Part shown: piece after piece, positions 1,448 through 42,607 of the stretch
How positions within the stretch are numbered: position 1 is the first letter of the stretch
Layout of the letters: each line of letters starts with the position of its first letter
Source: Methylophaga sp.
Lineage (GTDB): Bacteria > Pseudomonadota > Gammaproteobacteria > Nitrosococcales > Methylophagaceae
Assembly: GCA_030148085.1 (NCBI GenBank)
Contig: JASBUF010000067.1
Span: 62,001 to 126,000, forward strand
DNA length: 64,000 nt
Direction of reading: 5' to 3'
Made by a program: the position numbers and the translations under genes
The notes under the pieces: model-generated
Told to the model about the DNA's origin: nothing
Seen by the model: only the letters and a program-made list of their open reading frames with translations
The model's database searches: none

Positions 1448-4400
1448 AGCTCGCCTCCCTGCAGATGCTGAACAATCGGCAGATATACCTGCTTGGCGAT
1501 TTCGATAAAGTCATCATTGAGGGGAGATTGTTTAACCACCAGTTGATGGTAAGCATCATCCTGCTCAGCAGTGAGCTGCCCCTGACCTCGCCAACTATTT
1601 TCCGCTTTAGCTAGGGCCTGCTCCGGATTTTTTCCCTCAGACAACTTGAAGTATTCCAGACTGGTTTTATCGAAAAACGGTAATGGTTGATGCAACCCTT
1701 GCCAGTACAAAGTGAGTAGCCGAGAGAATATCTGGGTCGGACTGGTGACAGGTAAAAACTGATACAACTTATCCTGCAAGACTAATGTCGTTTCCAGCTG
1801 CACTCCTTCCGGCCGCAAGATATTGAGCAGCAAATGATCAATCCACGCTGCAATGATGTCTTTGCCTTTGGGTTTTGCCAGCCGGTAACGTAACAATCCC
1901 TGCTGGCTGATGCCTTCAAGTTGCCCACCTAGCCTGAAACCATCAATATTAAGGTCGACCGGAGAGCTCATCGATGGTGAGTCAGGCAGGTTCGGTGCGA
2001 GGGTTTCGATAAAAGCGTTGACGGTTTGTGATTCCTGCTCATACCAGGCTTCACCCAATTCTCCCTGTGGCAACACACCCATCGCAGCAATCACAGGCTT
2101 GAGGCCTTCATCACTGAACTGAGTCAGGTTCGCTTCCAGTAATTGCTGACGCAGCTGCCAGCTTTCCAGCCCATCCAAGGTAAAGGGCTCGCGGCTTTCC
2201 AGCTCTTCATCCTCGAGTTCTAGACGTATATTCAGTCGCTCCCGTAGCAGGAACTTGATTGGGTGAGCAAAGAAACGGGCTAATTGATTAGCGGTGAGAT
2301 CACGCCAGCTGGCATCGGCTTCATCCAGTACAGTATCGAACCAATCAACTGATGGAACCATGTCTGACAATGGACACTGCGCCGCATTGAAGCTGAATAA
2401 CTTGGCATTCTCGCCATTGAAATAGCGTTTACTGAACGGCTGCAGTGGATGCTGCGTTTTAATTTGCGTGAGAATATCGGCCCCTTGCTCCGTTTCAAAA
2501 CGCTCACATAGCAGATCCTGCAAATCACTGATCAGCACCGATGGCGGCACTTCGCTGTTGTCGACAATGCTGGCACCAACGTAGCTGATGTAGAGCGTTT
2601 GCTGTGCCGATAAAAGCGCTTCCAAAAACAGGTAGCGGTCATCATCACGGCGGGAGCGATCACCTTCACGGTGATCCTGAGACAGCAAGTCAAAACTCAG
2701 CATCGGCTGACGACGAGGGAAGACCTCGTCATTCATACCAATCAGACAGACCACCGAAAACGGAATACTACGCATCGGCACCATACCGCAGAAGGTCACA
2801 CCGTGCCCCATAAAGCGGTGCGTTGTATCAACCGCATCCAGATGCGACTGTAACCAGCTGTGAATCAACTCGATGCTGACTTCCTGCTCAAAGCTGGCGT
2901 GCATAGCACTGTCCTGCAAGCGATCAAGCTGGCTGCGAATAGCGTTTAATTCGCTATCAAAAACGTCGTCTTCTAGCCCCTCAGTATCGAAAAAAGCATC
3001 CAGACAGGAAGTCAGTTGGGCTTGCCAATCAGCAATGGTTAATCGTCTGTTTAGTTGCTTACGCCAATGTGCCAGTGCATCAATAAAGCTGCATAAGGCC
3101 GCCACCATGCGCGCCTTATCACCGCTGATGCCATCCATTGCCAGTTGGCCATCAAACAAACGCCACTGCTGACCCGGCTCAGTCATCGGCATCGCCATGC
3201 CGAGCATCAATCTATCGAGGCCGGCACGCCAGGTATTCGCATCGCTGGCAGGTAGTTCAAGCTGCTGTTTATCACCACTATCGAGTCCCCAGCGTGTGCG
3301 TGTTTCACCACACCACTGCCGGATCCAAGTCAAACCGGCATCATCCAGCCCAAAGCGATTCTGCAGTGCCGGACATTCCAGCAAGGCAATAACGGTATCC
3401 ACATCAAAACGTGATTGTGGCAACTGCAGCAGGCTGAAGAAGGTAGTGATGAGCTGACTTTCCTGCTGGCCACTGCTGTCGGCAATACTGAATGGAATGC
3501 GGTGCTTTTCTTCGGTGGCAGCGAATACCGCTTCAATCCACGGTGCATAGAGATCAATATCCGGCGTCATCACCACAATATCGGTCGGCGCAAGGCTGGG
3601 ATCTCGCTCAAACATGGCCAATAGCTGGTCGTGCAGGACTTCAATTTCACGCATAGCGCTATGGCAGACATGGATTGCTACCGACGTATCATCAGCCTCA
3701 ACAGCCGTCTTTTCGCCGGGTTCGAGTAGATACATATCGCGCTGCAGTTCGGCGAGCATTGAGCCGCCTTCCGACTCAATAAACAAGGTGTCTGCTTCAT
3801 GCGTCGTTTCCTGCAACTGGCGGAAGAACTCCATGCCCTGCTTGCCCAGACTCGCGAGTAACGGATGACCGGGTTCAGCCTCAATGACTTCGTCGAAATT
3901 AAGCTGCAACTGCTCTCGTTGGAGCTGTTTCGGATCACGCAAATCGCCCCAGTAAAACTCGCTTGGCGACAGATAATAAAAGGTGATATCGACAAAACGG
4001 GCTAATAAGGCAAAGGTCTGCAAATACACTGGCGGCAACGCTGAAATACCGACAATGCTGATCCGTGATGGCAAGCCCTGCGGCGCTGAGGAGGCCTCGG
4101 TCAGCTGCTGATGCATCTTCTGTAATAAAAAGGCACGGTGTTTGGGTTCAGGATCATGCTCCGTGAGCCTATGCCATAACTGACTCTGCCATGAGTCGGT
4201 ATCGCCCTGCTCCCAGCGGTTCACCCAGTCCGGGCGATACATCAGGTATTGGTCAAAGGTATCGGCGATACGTTCGGCCAGTTGATAGCGTTTGAGTTCA
4301 TCATCACTGCCCGCCAGATAGGCCGCTACAGGCTCAAAACCGGGCAGCTCAATACTCTCAGGCAATAAGGCATAAATACGCCAAGCAAGCGAGGATTTCG

Positions 4401-5730: not shown

Positions 5731-5791
5731 CACACCCCGGTAATCCACTCATGATGCGGTGAGAGTACGATTTTCTATACGGCTGAACATT

Positions 5792-37904: not shown

Positions 37905-38132
37905 AAACGCATCCCCCTAGTCGTCGCACCGACTGACTGTTGTTATCACTAGCTTACTCTGTAATGCAACTCTCAACCCATTCTTCTAACAGCATTTTTT
38001 AGTGACTCTCGGCTCAGTAAGTCAAACCCCGAGCGAAGGAGGCAAATGTGAAAGCGTGAACTGATTCACACAACCGTGACGAAGCAATATTTTTGTCACG
38101 AAAGGTTCACAATTGTTGCCTATTTTGGCGGC

Positions 38133-39773
38133 ATGAAAAATACCGATACTGATCAACTTCGTGCCCAACTGATTGCAACTTTGTGGTCGTTGAAGGCCGC
38201 CATTAGCAAACACCCTAATGCCATTAAAGGACTGGGCTACGTTCATTTCAACACTCTCATCAAGGACGAAGCGTACCGCTTATCCATCCTCCAGGCAGCG
38301 ACAGCTTCGTCTATTGAAGAAGTTCGCGAGCTTGCCTTGGCCGCCTTAAAAAACCACCTTCCTGGGCCACTCGCCAAGAACACAATTGATGAAACCAGCA
38401 ATACAGTTGCAATGACTTCAATGGCAGAAAGGCATCAGCATCAGCAAGACCATCCGGAGAAAAAGCGCGCCTTCAGCTTGTGGCTGAAATCTGCCCTGCT
38501 CTTTGTCTTGATGGGCGGCATGACAACGGCTGCCATCAGTGGCTGGTTGTGGAATAGTGACATTCAGGTCGTCGAAGCTCCGATTAATGAATCTCAGACT
38601 TGGTCAACTGACAAAAAGTACATCTTAAACGGTCTTATTTTTGTGGAAAGTGGTGCGACACTGACCATCGAACCAGGCACTCACATTGCCGGTGCACCGG
38701 GCTCTGCCCTTATCGTCACCCGTGATGCCAAAATTAATGCTCAGGGGCAGAAAAATGCACCGATTGTGATGACCTCGAGCCAAGCGGTTGGTGAACGTCA
38801 GCGTGGTGACTGGGGTGGTCTGGTATTACTCGGCAATGCGACCGTTAATAGTGGCACTGGCCATATTGAAGGCATTGAAAAAGATGACCCTCGCGGCGGC
38901 TATGGCGGCATGGCCGACACAGGCTCTTGTGGTGTACTCAAATATGTACGAATCGAATTCGCAGGTTATGAAATTTCTCAGGACAACGAACTCAACGGAC
39001 TCACCCTGGGTGGTTGCGGCTCCGGCACCATCATCAACCATGTTCAGGTTCATATGGGCCTGGATGATGGCGTCGAAGTATTTGGCGGCACCGTCAACCT
39101 TAAGCACATCCTGATCAGTCGTCCCGGTGATGATGGCCTCGACTGGGATCGTGGCTGGCAAGGCAATGGGCAATTTATCATCGTCCATCAAGGCCACGAT
39201 GACGGCGATAATGCCATCGAAGCGGATAATGATGCCTCGAACCCGAATGCTACGCCGCGCTCTAATCCAACTTTATCCAATATCACGCTGGTTGGCTCGG
39301 GTAACAACACCATTGCCCAGCGCGGTCTGCTGCTGAGACGCGGTACCGGTGGTGATTTCCGTAATGTCCTCATCACCGGATTTAGTACCGAAGCACTGGA
39401 TATTGGCGATGTTGACACCGCAGAGCTGACAGGATCAGGTGAGTTAAAAGCCAATGGTTGGGTTATTCAAAACAGCGATATGCGCTATTTCTCAGAAGAA
39501 CGCGATAGTCAGAATGATGATGATGGCTTTTCTGAGCAAAGCTGGATTCAGCAGACAAATAATGAGCTGACGCCTCGCGAGATTATTCTGTTTGCCAATA
39601 CGCCGGGCCAGATTCCTGACTTTGCCCCGCTCCCTCGCTCAGCAGCTACCAAGATTAATGTGCCTTTACCCCAGGGAGAATTTTGGGATGAAGGCGCTAA
39701 CTTTGCCGGAGCGATTCGCCCCGGCTCTCGCGTCAGTTGGCTGGATGGTTGGACGGCTTACCCAATTAATTGA
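38133..39773 (+). CDS. Membrane-anchored right-handed beta-helix protein of unknown function
   Basis: I do not recognise a named family with confidence. With the ATG at 38133 the protein has 546 residues: an N-terminal soluble, mostly helical region (1-110), one TM helix (about 115-139), then a long extracytoplasmic part with beta-helix character. That part carries repeated short strands with Asn and Gly turns such as LNGLIFVESGATLTIEPGTHI, ILGNATVNSGTGHIEG-like strands, LKYVRIEFAGYEI, INHVQVHMGLDDGVEVFGG and a run of Asp-rich turns (HQGHDDGDNAIEADNDASN). It has the type II orientation (positive residues KKRAFSLWLK before the helix). A longer reading from 38076 seems unlikely. It stands alone between convergent neighbours. 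Confidence 0.8.
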   Translation: MKNTDTDQLRAQLIATLWSLKAAISKHPNAIKGLGYVHFNTLIKDEAYRLSILQAATASSIEEVRELALAALKNHLPGPLAKNTIDETSNTVAMTSMAERHQHQQDHPEKKRAFSLWLKSALLFVLMGGMTTAAISGWLWNSDIQVVEAPINESQTWSTDKKYILNGLIFVESGATLTIEPGTHIAGAPGSALIVTRDAKINAQGQKNAPIVMTSSQAVGERQRGDWGGLVLLGNATVNSGTGHIEGIEKDDPRGGYGGMADTGSCGVLKYVRIEFAGYEISQDNELNGLTLGGCGSGTIINHVQVHMGLDDGVEVFGGTVNLKHILISRPGDDGLDWDRGWQGNGQFIIVHQGHDDGDNAIEADNDASNPNATPRSNPTLSNITLVGSGNNTIAQRGLLLRRGTGGDFRNVLITGFSTEALDIGDVDTAELTGSGELKANGWVIQNSDMRYFSEERDSQNDDDGFSEQSWIQQTNNELTPREIILFANTPGQIPDFAPLPRSAATKINVPLPQGEFWDEGANFAGAIRPGSRVSWLDGWTAYPIN

Positions 39774-39786
39774 TTAGTTAGGTTTG

Positions 39787-39811
39787 CCATAACAGATTGA
39801 TATGGTTAGAT
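39787..39811 (-). repeat. Collapsed attC-like remnant downstream of the ICMT-like gene
   Basis: Read on the minus strand: ATCTAAC (R''-like), 11 nt, GTTATGG (R'-like). The boxes lie in the order and position expected 3' of a cassette gene, but the usual 50-100 nt centre is missing. The flanking GCATCTAAC on the minus strand is identical to that of the 40595-40603 remnant. Probably a deletion product; low certainty on its own. Confidence 0.35.
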
Positions 39812-39826
39812 GCGTAAAAAAACGCC

Positions 39827-40546
39827 TCACCAGATAAATGGAATAAGCCGATAACGTAGCCTTGCCATGTAACCAACATAACCGGGCAAGGTCTCCTGCA
39901 ACGTCCTCTCCTCAACAAAAATCCGTGCAATCACAAAGCTGAAAACAAAGGGCAGTGCCAGAAGACTGGCATAGCTTTCCAGCCACAATGCCACCCCGAT
40001 GAGGAAGAACAGTAAGCCGCAATACATAGGATGACGAATATGAGCATAAAGTCCCGTATCGATGAGTACTTGCCCACGTTCTGATTGGTCTTTGACGATC
40101 GGTGCAGCAAATGCATTTTGATACAACGACATAATGATAATGCCAAATCCTATGACAAACAGTGCGCCACCGAAAAGCGACACAACGAAATGTGGCGGCG
40201 CTAACAATTGCAGATGAAACACATCAATGGGAATAAACACGAACCACGCCATGAATGAGATAAGCAAAAGCGCTGTAATTACTCTATCCGCCATTGGTTG
40301 TGTCTTATCGATTGGCCCAGTGATTCGAGCCTCCAAACTGCCTGGTGCCCACAAGGCAAGCACAACTGTCGACACGAATAATAAAAAGCCATACACGACA
40401 AGAAACATCATCGCACGAGGCCAATCCAAAGTCCCTGCAGGAAGGAACAGTAAGACGGCGAACAAGGCGATTTGAACCGACACGCCAAGTAACCCCTTGA
40501 TTAACAGCATGTGGTCTCGCAGATTCTCTGTTCTCGGTAAGTTCAT
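39827..40546 (-). CDS. Isoprenylcysteine carboxyl methyltransferase-like membrane protein
   Basis: 239-residue membrane protein with about five hydrophobic segments. The ICMT/PEMT-type signature near the C-terminus, YAHIRHPMYCGLLFFLIG (about 167-184), holds the His-Pro-x-Tyr SAM-site motif, followed by EERTLQETLPGYVGYMARLRYRLIPFIW, whose E-E pair and YxxY pattern are family features. It should methylate a lipid or small hydrophobic substrate using SAM. It is the last minus-strand gene of the cassette run and lies between two decayed attC sites, so it may be a captured cassette gene that is now fixed. Start at ATG 40546. Confidence 0.8.
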   Translation of the reverse strand: MNLPRTENLRDHMLLIKGLLGVSVQIALFAVLLFLPAGTLDWPRAMMFLVVYGFLLFVSTVVLALWAPGSLEARITGPIDKTQPMADRVITALLLISFMAWFVFIPIDVFHLQLLAPPHFVVSLFGGALFVIGFGIIIMSLYQNAFAAPIVKDQSERGQVLIDTGLYAHIRHPMYCGLLFFLIGVALWLESYASLLALPFVFSFVIARIFVEERTLQETLPGYVGYMARLRYRLIPFIW

Positions 40547-40560
40547 TTCCTGGTTTCATT

Positions 40561-40603
40561 CAGCCGACGCATCAGCGGTCGACTGCAGTGCCTTGTTAGA
40601 TGC
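40561..40603 (-). repeat. Decayed attC site (3' half lost)
   Basis: Read on the minus strand it starts GCATCTAAC (R'' box, 40603-40595) followed by AAGGCACTG, as in a normal L'' region, then a central stem CAGTCGACCGC / GCGTCGGCTG with a 4-nt loop and one bulge. The expected L'/R' half (ending GTT) is not found before the start of the ICMT-like gene at 40546. It lies 47 bp after the zinc-ribbon gene stop. Confidence 0.5.
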
Positions 40604-40649
40604 CATGGTAAAAGATTAAAAACTTACTCCTATCACACCATATTTCCTA

Positions 40650-41027
40650 TTAATGATGATTCATTGGGCTAGCAGGATAAATTCGGGTTCTATGAACATA
40701 ACCACACTCCTCGCAATGATATGTTATGGGTACCTTATTAGAGCCGCCAAAAATGGCCTTCTTTTTACGGCTGGCGTGATATATGGCTCTCCCACCGCAC
40801 TTGGGACATCGCCCCACAATTAGGTTGCGAAATACAAAGCCTGTTACAAGAAGTGCTAAAGCTGCCGGTACCATTCCAAAGACAATAAATACAACCTCTT
40901 TTACCTGCAGAATGTCAGTAAGTGAGGGTCGTATGGTTTCGTGGACACTCATACCTAACATAAAGCCACTGAGCAAAGCTGCGATGTTTGCCAGAAATAA
41001 AAAGGCTAGATGTAATGGAATGGGCAT
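40650..41027 (-). CDS. Zinc-ribbon membrane protein of unknown function (cassette gene)
   Basis: 125 residues, no family name recognised. Two hydrophobic helices (about 6-27 and 44-68) are followed by a cytosolic zinc-ribbon: CPKCGG (about 74-79) and CEECGY (about 104-109), four cysteines in CxxC pairs with a basic stretch (SRKKKAIFGG) between. A good ribosome site, AAAGGA, precedes ATG 41027. An intact attC lies immediately upstream on the minus strand and a decayed one downstream, so it forms a single-gene integron cassette. Confidence 0.75.
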   Translation of the reverse strand: MPIPLHLAFLFLANIAALLSGFMLGMSVHETIRPSLTDILQVKEVVFIVFGMVPAALALLVTGFVFRNLIVGRCPKCGGRAIYHASRKKKAIFGGSNKVPITYHCEECGYVHRTRIYPASPMNHH

Positions 41028-41066
41028 GGACTATTCCTTTTGGTTCTGTTCATGGGTAATTCGGAC

Positions 41067-41150
41067 ATTTAACGCAAAGCTTTGGGGCAGCAGGTGCAAC
41101 GCGTAGACTGTCCCAGCCGCGATAGCGGCGACAACAGCGCCTTGTTATGC
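41067..41150 (-). repeat. Integron attC recombination site B
   Basis: 84 bp. On the minus strand it runs from GCATAAC (R'', 41150-41144) to GTTAAAT (R', 41073-41067). Inner boxes are L'' GCT-G-TTG and L' CAAAGC, which pair with one unpaired G in L'', the extrahelical base that directs strand choice by IntI. The central part adds short stems (GCCGC/GCGGC). The stop codon of the GFA-domain gene (TAA) lies inside R'', as is common for cassettes. Confidence 0.8.
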
Positions 41151-41561
41151 ATTTTCTGGTGCATGCTCTTGGTACTGGGTGACTCCTTCAGGGATTACTT
41201 CCCAACTTGCTTTAGAGCCAACAAAAATATGCCTGCCAATTTCTATTTCTGGGTCTTCGTTAAGACACCCCAATGTTATACCGTGTACTTTATCCTCGTA
41301 GATTCCACACAGAGTAGAGCCACATTGCTTGCAGAACTGAAAGCCAAAGCCATGTTGGCTAGCATAAGTAGTTAAATATTCCTTGCCTCTAACCCACCTA
41401 AAGTCTGATGAATTTACTAAAGCATAAGATGACGCTTGGGAGCTAAATGCTTTTCGGCAACGCGAGCAATGGCATGATCTTGCGTCAAATAGCGCACCAT
41501 CTATTTCATACTTAATTTCACCGCAAAAGCATTCGCCTGTTAATTTCACTGGATTCTCCAT
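41145..41561 (-). CDS. GFA-domain (CENP-V type) zinc protein (cassette gene)
   Basis: 138-residue protein of the GFA family (glutathione-dependent formaldehyde-activating enzyme-like). Zinc-binding cysteines are in the usual places: CFCGEIKYE (about 11-19), CHCSRCRKAF (about 30-39) and FCKQCGSTL (about 76-84). GFA-fold proteins are frequent passengers of integron cassettes; formaldehyde chemistry should not be assumed. The ATG at 41561 is only a few bases from the upstream R' box, leaving no room for a normal leader. Bounded by attC A upstream and attC B downstream, giving a cassette of about 500 bp. Confidence 0.88.
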   Translation of the reverse strand: MENPVKLTGECFCGEIKYEIDGALFDARSCHCSRCRKAFSSQASSYALVNSSDFRWVRGKEYLTTYASQHGFGFQFCKQCGSTLCGIYEDKVHGITLGCLNEDPEIEIGRHIFVGSKASWEVIPEGVTQYQEHAPENA

Positions 41562-41564
41562 GAT

Positions 41565-41654
41565 GCATAACGCCCCGCTAAACGGAGAGCGTTAGCGAGT
41601 CCGGTGGAGGCCACGCTTTTTGTGGCTGGAACGTATTTGAGCGGTTTGTTATGA
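41565..41654 (-). repeat. Integron attC recombination site A
   Basis: 90 bp. On the minus strand it begins TCATAAC (41654-41648) and ends GTTATGC (41571-41565). L'' reads CCGCTCAAA and L' reads TTTAGCGG; they pair fully except for one unpaired C in L'', the hallmark extrahelical base of attC. The centre contains AGCCAC / GTGGC(C)T stems. The site strongly resembles chromosomal-integron attC repeats of marine gammaproteobacteria. The upstream gene's TAA stop is inside its first box. Confidence 0.9.
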
Positions 41655-42344
41655 GTTTTCACGCCGAGCCTTTTCCTCTGCGAACCGCTTTTCCCTTTCC
41701 TCTCTTTCTTCTTTGCGGTCTTCACTCGAGTATACGTCTGCTTTAACTCGCTTGAAGCCACTTACAACATGACCTATATCTTTCTGAATTTTTTCTAAGC
41801 TTTGTGCCATGGAATATAAATTTGGTTTGCCTAGTTGATAGCGACCTTTTAATTCACTCATGTCGAGTATTATTTCATCGGTATATTTCTTTCCGGTTGC
41901 GCTTTTGTAACTGAGTCTAAAAGACAAAATAGAAGATGATTTACCTTCAAAGTCCTCTGTTGTTTGGGTATAAGTAGAATATATGTTTTGGCCGGGGCCA
42001 AAATGACGAAGACCTGTTTTAAAGAAATTTGACTCAGTGAATTCACCGAGAAGTTTTGCTGCTGACTCCCCACCTGTAATTACTGACGGTGAGAACTGTA
42101 AATCACTCGCTGGACCTAAACCAATATTTTGGATATTAAGGCGAATTATATGTATGGCAAATTCAAAACTCTCAATTGTTATATGTATTTTGGGCTCTGT
42201 CTGAACCTCCCTCATCTTTCTAGTTTCAGAAACCAAAAAACCAGTAAGAACTGCATAGATTACGGTCGATAGGGTAACAACAGCAGTAAATATTACCGTC
42301 AAGGCCTCAGAATTCTGCTTAAGAAAATTCAACATTTCAGTCAA
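41649..42344 (-). CDS. Membrane-anchored protein of unknown function (cassette gene)
   Basis: 231 residues, not assigned to a known family. One TM helix near the N-terminus (about 14-36), then a soluble domain with beta character (EPKIHITIESFEFAIHIIRLNIQNIGLGPASDL, about 50-82 in two runs) and a highly charged C-terminal tail of Glu, Arg and Lys (about 205-231) that is likely helical. The start is TTG 42344 with AAGGAG 9 nt upstream. Base composition is visibly richer in A and T than the flanking core genes. It ends within attC A, and an R'-like GTTATGA lies 19 bp upstream, so it is the outermost cassette seen. Confidence 0.75.
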   Translation of the reverse strand: MTEMLNFLKQNSEALTVIFTAVVTLSTVIYAVLTGFLVSETRKMREVQTEPKIHITIESFEFAIHIIRLNIQNIGLGPASDLQFSPSVITGGESAAKLLGEFTESNFFKTGLRHFGPGQNIYSTYTQTTEDFEGKSSSILSFRLSYKSATGKKYTDEIILDMSELKGRYQLGKPNLYSMAQSLEKIQKDIGHVVSGFKRVKADVYSSEDRKEEREEREKRFAEEKARRENS

Positions 42345-42607
42345 CGTAAAACTCCTTTTGACTCATAACAGTGTGTTAATGAGGTCTCCGACCTCATAAT
42401 AGTTATTAGTGTGTCTGCCTCATAACATCTCCAAGCTGCTCTTAATTCATTGAAGTTTAAACAAATTACTGCAAACAAATGATCGAAGTTAGGAATTATG
42501 AGGCCAACTAGTGACCGGGTGAGAGAATCGGTGTGAAAGATAGTGCGTAGTGCTGTCATATCGGAATCTCCATTTCGCGATACTGAGTTGAACTGAGAGT
42601 CTACAAC
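42345..42607 (-). other. Cassette boundary region without a confident gene
   Basis: About 260 bp between the outermost cassette gene and the terminator of the next core gene. On the minus strand an R'-like GTTATGA box lies at 42369-42363, and a perfect hairpin ATGAGGTC / GACCTCAT (42379-42397, 3-nt loop) just beyond it. A 72-codon reading frame (42559 to 42341) with GGAG before its ATG crosses the hairpin and overlaps the cassette gene; I do not regard it as a supported gene. No full attC or attI could be defined. Confidence 0.45.

Follow-up and report, generated by a model that had tools for sequence, protein, structure and literature searches.

Gene content of the locus

In the 64,000-nt stretch of Methylophaga DNA analysed here (the window), which lies within a 144.8-kb contig of a 2.46-Mb assembly (95 contigs, 89.9% complete), four minus-strand open reading frames follow one another in the same direction, as a preliminary description made from the sequence had noted. 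They are accompanied by two attC sites, a decayed attC and, at their head, a predicted attI (Table 1). The nearest named relative at this locus is Methylophaga thiooxydans DMS010, and the window contig is also present among the compared whole genomes (as G002, same genus).

Table 1. Coordinates of features at the window array and at the second array of the same genome (contig C91, locus L092)
Feature	Position	Strand	Description
Probable intI remnant, GAAATGGAGATT	42565-42576	(-)	Exact; antisense of intI start, 175 nt from attI
attI	42362-42425	(-)	DR2, DR1-L palindrome and R box; matches intI-adjacent attI of relatives
attI DR2-like repeat, TTATGAGGCAGAC	42413-42425	(-)	Position and sequence type as in relatives' attI
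attI core	42362-42401	(-)	DR1-L palindrome TATTATGAGGTCGGAGACCTCATTAA (42376-42401) and R box CACACTG|TTATGAG
Cassette 1, 798 bp	41571-42368	(-)	Extends from the attI crossover to that of attC1
Cassette 1 gene, 231 aa	41649-42344	(-)	Probable N-terminal membrane helix
attC1	41565-41654	(-)	42.3 bits, E 6e-8 (model R1, window)
Cassette 2, 498 bp	41073-41570	(-)	Also in another attI-headed array, M. thiooxydans
Cassette 2 gene, 138 aa	41145-41561	(-)	GFA family, PF04828, E 5.9e-21
attC2	41067-41150	(-)	35.8 bits, E 2e-6 (model R1, window)
Cassette 3 gene, 125 aa	40650-41027	(-)	N-terminal half hydrophobic, zinc-ribbon-like tail
attC3, decayed	40555-40601	(-)	R'', L'' and L' retained, R' gone; aligned to L072:13278-13333
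Fourth gene	39827-40546	(-)	Phospholipid methyltransferase-like (PF04191); begins 9 nt past attC3
C91 attI core (L092)	5735-5760
C91 attC sites (L092)	4071-4149, 3449-3505, 1984-2061, 947-1042

The interval between epmA and dctM, often with a GGDEF gene, recurs in the genus; the window cassettes are absent from it in the genomes of all 12 relatives compared, where other genes take their place. Since the cassettes are missing from the same locus in relatives, the window array can be regarded as an accessory insert, and the comparison revealed no syntenic conservation of these genes. The proposal that the array is embedded in core genes held for the epmA side, which is conserved in the genus, and in part for the GGDEF gene, which occurs in much of it, but not for the beta-helix gene on the other flank. 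For the latter (window 38076-39773), M. thiooxydans gave the only well-conserved match (69-71% identity); there the gene sits immediately next to epmA, and the GGDEF gene is absent.

The protein of cassette 1 gave no match in Pfam, NCBIfam or PADLOC, and one distant homolog was found among 228 other genomes of the class. The GFA-family protein of cassette 2 falls far under the NCBIfam cut-off for S-(hydroxymethyl)glutathione synthase and is 87% identical to a copy in an M. thiooxydans array located elsewhere, the DNA homology extending from the R' GTTA to R'' TAACAAGGC. Given these exact R'-to-R'' boundaries, cassette 2 behaves as a mobile cassette as far as can be judged from its sequence. 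A further GFA paralog (G000:C68:6395-6808; 75% identical, with an internal stop) has no attC cluster detected around it. The cassette 3 protein remained under Pfam cut-offs, and the fourth gene had no match in 23 other genomes of the genus. In the first two array genes the stops lie inside R'' (TCATAAC and GCATAAC), in agreement with the earlier reading.

attC sites, attI and a probable remnant of intI

For the identification of attC sites we built a covariance model (R1) from 55 attCs of intI-adjacent arrays of relatives, selected beside integron integrases matching TIGR02249, the window being excluded. With the textbook pairing, in which R'' pairs with R' and L'' with L' around a single extrahelical base, 76.9% of the cells of the R1 alignment were paired and the covariation score was 0.407, compared to 30-37% and 0.06-0.14 when the partner was slid by 1-3 columns. 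Under this model attC1 and attC2 both scored, at precisely the coordinates first proposed for them (Table 1). Indeed, they were the top two matches of an independent box/bulge scanner across the 64 kb and lie approximately 0.5 kb apart in one orientation; when the search was extended to the whole genome, one cluster on contig C91 provided the only other scoring sites. An Rfam search of the array stretch gave nothing relevant.

Folds cut at the boxes were clearer than earlier folds with extra flanks. In the bottom strand of attC1, R'/R'' and L'/L'' are paired in the fold (z -2.98, with none of 200 shuffles equal), which supports the predicted site as a folded bottom-strand substrate; this applies to attC1 only, and attC2 gave no canonical fold in the free-energy model (z ~0). 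That the fold of attC2 is no better than those of shuffles would suit an explanation by chance similarity, or by a plain accessory operon containing inverted repeats. Nevertheless, 2.46 Mb hold only two scoring clusters, both attI-headed, and the exact cassette boundaries are common to another species, so that we attach a negligible probability to this explanation.

Two decayed sites had also been proposed. The first, attC3, aligns to a relative's attC with 4 mismatches over 45 nt (score 70, versus 14.8 +/- 2.7 for shuffles), and its sequence is plainly the remainder of an attC type occurring in relatives; its low score under R1 (14.2 bits) results from the loss of the R' box. The second, at 39787-39811 beyond the fourth gene, reached 8 bits (E ~1.2 in 6.5 kb) and was rejected as unsupported. 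The fourth gene, previously counted as part of the run, is accessory, but its membership is unproven and we treat it as a candidate cassette only.

The run had been described as ending at position 42369. This base is the G of the attI crossover, which lies between 42369 and 42368, and the attI head itself had been overlooked. Between intI and the first cassette of several relatives we found the consensus TTATTATGAGGCCnnnGGCCTCAT(T/A)AA(A)CAnnCTG|TTA, preceded by a first-half repeat (e.g. AATTATAAGGCCGCC), and the head of the window array is, by its sequence, a predicted attI of this kind. The DR2-DR1-L-R order of the Methylophaga attI is one that we take to resemble attI1. An attI core identical to that of the window occurs in another genome (G011:C38) with a different flank; for the head of the window array, the sampled genomes yielded no ortholog. 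A scan near attI, which covered the sigma-70 consensus only, detected no sigma-70-like promoter.

At 175 nt upstream of attI, GAAATGGAGATT is present without mismatches, and no exact match occurred in 1420 shuffles. In relatives it reads, in antisense, as the start of intI (M-x-x-S-P-F) and lies 195-208 nt from attI in heads bearing intI or an intI fragment; in the window the start codon is apparently changed from ATG to ATA. In local alignments of the window attI-intI spacer, the score was matched by 1 of 300 shuffles (G014) and 3 of 300 (G012). It is thus likely that the window intI was deleted down to ~12 codons; we say likely and not certain because the spacer as a whole aligns only moderately better than shuffles do. 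The terminator hairpin of the GGDEF gene starts 38 nt beyond the fragment.

The absence of an integron integrase from the window, noted at the outset, extends to the 144.8-kb contig and to the assembly: no intI over the IntI cut-off was found in any of them, and the tyrosine recombinases of the source genome comprise XerC/D-like and other enzymes only. The assembly being 89.9% complete, an intI elsewhere in the genome could have been missed. With 95 contigs and this level of completeness one might also propose a complete integron whose intI is merely missing from the assembly. We consider this very unlikely, since the locus is inside a long contig and the GGDEF gene occupies the position of intI, its hairpin only 38 nt off; moreover, an intI elsewhere would make the window array a platform served in trans and not a complete integron.

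For dispersed arrays we had first considered that a distant IntI inserts cassettes directly at a chromosomal attG, with no integron platform at the locus, which is a route of cassettes into genomes documented by Loot et al. 2024 (doi 10.1038/s41564-023-01548-y, as cited in PMC12444791). We dropped it once an attI was found at the head: the array starts with a full attI of the intI-adjacent type and a probable intI start fragment, neither of which attG needs, and this route is now very hard to credit here.

We therefore consider the window array most likely to be a decapitated integron, that is, a CALIN that has retained its attI. The CALIN-type label of the preliminary description agrees with two good attCs, a decayed one, the lack of intI and the absence of the cassettes from this locus in the 12 relatives, but the cluster is not bare. 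Taken as a whole, that description was borne out in part: its attC sites and CALIN character stood, its fourth-gene site and core flanks did not. With high confidence, the locus represents a small integron in which intI was deleted to its first codons, leaving attI and three cassettes, and belongs to a genus-wide set of integrase-less arrays. When IntI was available, circular cassettes would have been inserted at attI between G42369 and T42368 by way of the folded bottom-strand attC, which would explain why all cassettes point one way, why stops fall in R'' and why leaders are short; expression of the array presumably started from a promoter near attI. As no IntI is seen in the source genome, the array probably no longer changes, unless it is served by an integrase in trans.

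attI heads and cassette turnover in Methylophaga

A search of the genome for intI and attI outside the array had been proposed; it gave a further attI on C91 and no intI in the assembly. On C91, a second attI-headed integrase-less array (L092, 947-5760) lies between recD and a YhcB-like gene. Its first cassette (L092 4156-5685(-)) encodes an OLD/AAA-type ATPase matching PADLOC AriA of PARIS defence (E 2.4e-75), with a 40% identical relative in an M. thiooxydans array (L201); the neighbouring cassettes gave no AriB match. With 2-3 attCs at the window array and 4 on C91, both are below the more than ~10 of a large sedentary chromosomal integron.

Across the genus, the attI core pattern, allowing up to 3 mismatches, matched in 20 of 24 genomes, the reversed pattern used as a control giving 0 matches; within the family, one further genus has the core in some of its genomes. 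Heads with both core and R box number 71 in 18 Methylophaga-genus genomes. At 59 of the 71, attC sites were found within 7 kb on the same strand (132 attCs in total), and at none on the opposite strand. Five of the 71 adjoin an intact intI and 7 an N-terminal part or frameshifted copy, and intI over the cut-off is present in 6 of the 24 genomes. Several genomes carry six to eight heads (e.g. G014 on C3/C1, G012, G022 and G023). At L068:13950, L131 and L143:3946, the array contains a further attI-like core a few kb down from its head. One genome, G009, had no attI-core match, and its array head (L204 ~1850-1950) consists of another palindrome, GGCTGCCATCCAT...ATGGATGGCAGCC, ending in CACTGTTAGG, which is probably a diverged attI.

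Six integrase-less heads (L201, L135, L169, L151, L159 and L150) carry an N-terminal piece of intI only, kept to residue 35-104 and always at the attI-proximal end. Because the fragments differ in length between heads, this suggests copying or acquisition of entire integrons, with loss of intI from its far end.

Cassette turnover was examined in 29 orthologous pairs of heads at 11 loci (the C91 array being one of the 11), in which the upstream flank is common and neither genome has an intact intI; pairs within one locus are not independent. The common flank mostly exceeds 1.1 kb, with 81-98% identity over the 400 nt before the crossover. Identity remains at ~0.95 through attI to CTG|TTA and falls to ~0.3, the level of chance, from the next base on; two orthologous pairs of heads with intI gave the same pattern. 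A shared array ORF was present in only 2 of 44 ortholocus pairs. As homology ends at CTG|TTA, the junctions show cassettes replaced at the cut site of IntI with no integrase adjacent, and as neither genome of a pair has an intact intI, the gene was most simply already lost in the common ancestor. By this comparison, cassettes were turned over at orthologous intI-less attIs. The simplest agent would be an IntI acting in trans, through which some arrays of the genus would have exchanged cassettes after losing their own intI.

Cassettes also recur in both the intI array and integrase-less arrays within one genome (G014; 98% and 90%), and in an intI array and an integrase-less array of different genomes (G006 and G022; 100%). 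In a genome that is 99% complete (G013), three heads were found and no intI over the cut-off, and the integrase may thus come and go.

From their sequences, the genus most likely holds a set of attI platforms that lack an integrase and have exchanged cassettes site-specifically in the past. We lean towards a distributed integron in Methylophaga, in which up to 8 chromosomal attI platforms per genome, nearly all lacking an adjacent intI and that of the window included, have their cassettes swapped by one trans-acting integrase that may be resident or may come and go by transfer; at the window's own array, action in trans is an inference. A dead relic, cut off once from its integrase and only decaying since, with no servicing in trans, would be consistent with the loss of R' in attC3, the altered intI start codon and the lack of intI in the assembly. 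Other intI-less heads argue against it, including that of C91, which differs in its cassettes from its orthologs in G003 and G013, starting precisely at the crossover, although these are not the window's locus. We consider the dead relic possible but doubtful.

Arrays without an integrase are commonly regarded as degraded integrons or as breaks in the assembly. Those of Methylophaga keep the docking site, remain at fixed places long enough to be common between species, and have changed cassettes at the very position where the integrase cuts, after losing their own intI. Whether one integrase serves many platforms becomes a directly testable question, and a search that stops at 'CALIN' can overlook attI-headed platforms.

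Comparison with known integron systems

Our search of the open-access literature gave no account of Methylophaga integrons, nor of genomes with multiple attI heads lacking an integrase. A loss of intI has been described in Treponema (PMC3607928). CALINs, as defined by IntegronFinder (PMC9024848), comprise at least 2 close attCs in one orientation with no intI nearby and are probably degraded integrons. The window array is alike in its clustered attCs without intI, but it keeps a recognisable attI and probably a fragment of the intI start; in Methylophaga, attI-headed arrays are the rule, with up to 8 heads per genome.

For Xanthomonas (PMC12444791) and Shewanella (PMC9229058), arrays without an integrase are described at several chromosomal sites across the genus, with mobilisation in trans considered possible; Xanthomonas CALINs also occur near recD, as does the C91 array. 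An attI does not appear in the consulted text on either group, whereas in Methylophaga it is present at nearly every such array examined, and a comparison of junctions reveals site-specific turnover.

Activity of IntI outside the canonical intI-attI platform is likewise represented by attG (Loot et al. 2024, as cited in PMC12444791) and by delta-attI (PMC12901181). The attG is a chromosomal site other than attI, whereas in Methylophaga whole attI sites stand alone as chromosomal array heads; delta-attI belongs to unusual cassettes of mobile integrons, and the Methylophaga attI is the head of an array.

The complete integrons of five relatives (G005, G006, G012, G014 and G019) are also close parallels. 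They and the window array are alike in attI architecture and attC families, in the divergent layout of intI and array, and in having cassettes common between arrays. The five have intI and 3-12 attCs, whereas the window array has fewer attCs and a deleted intI; of the elements of a complete integron, it retains an attI head and same-orientation cassettes bounded by attC, and lacks an intact intI.
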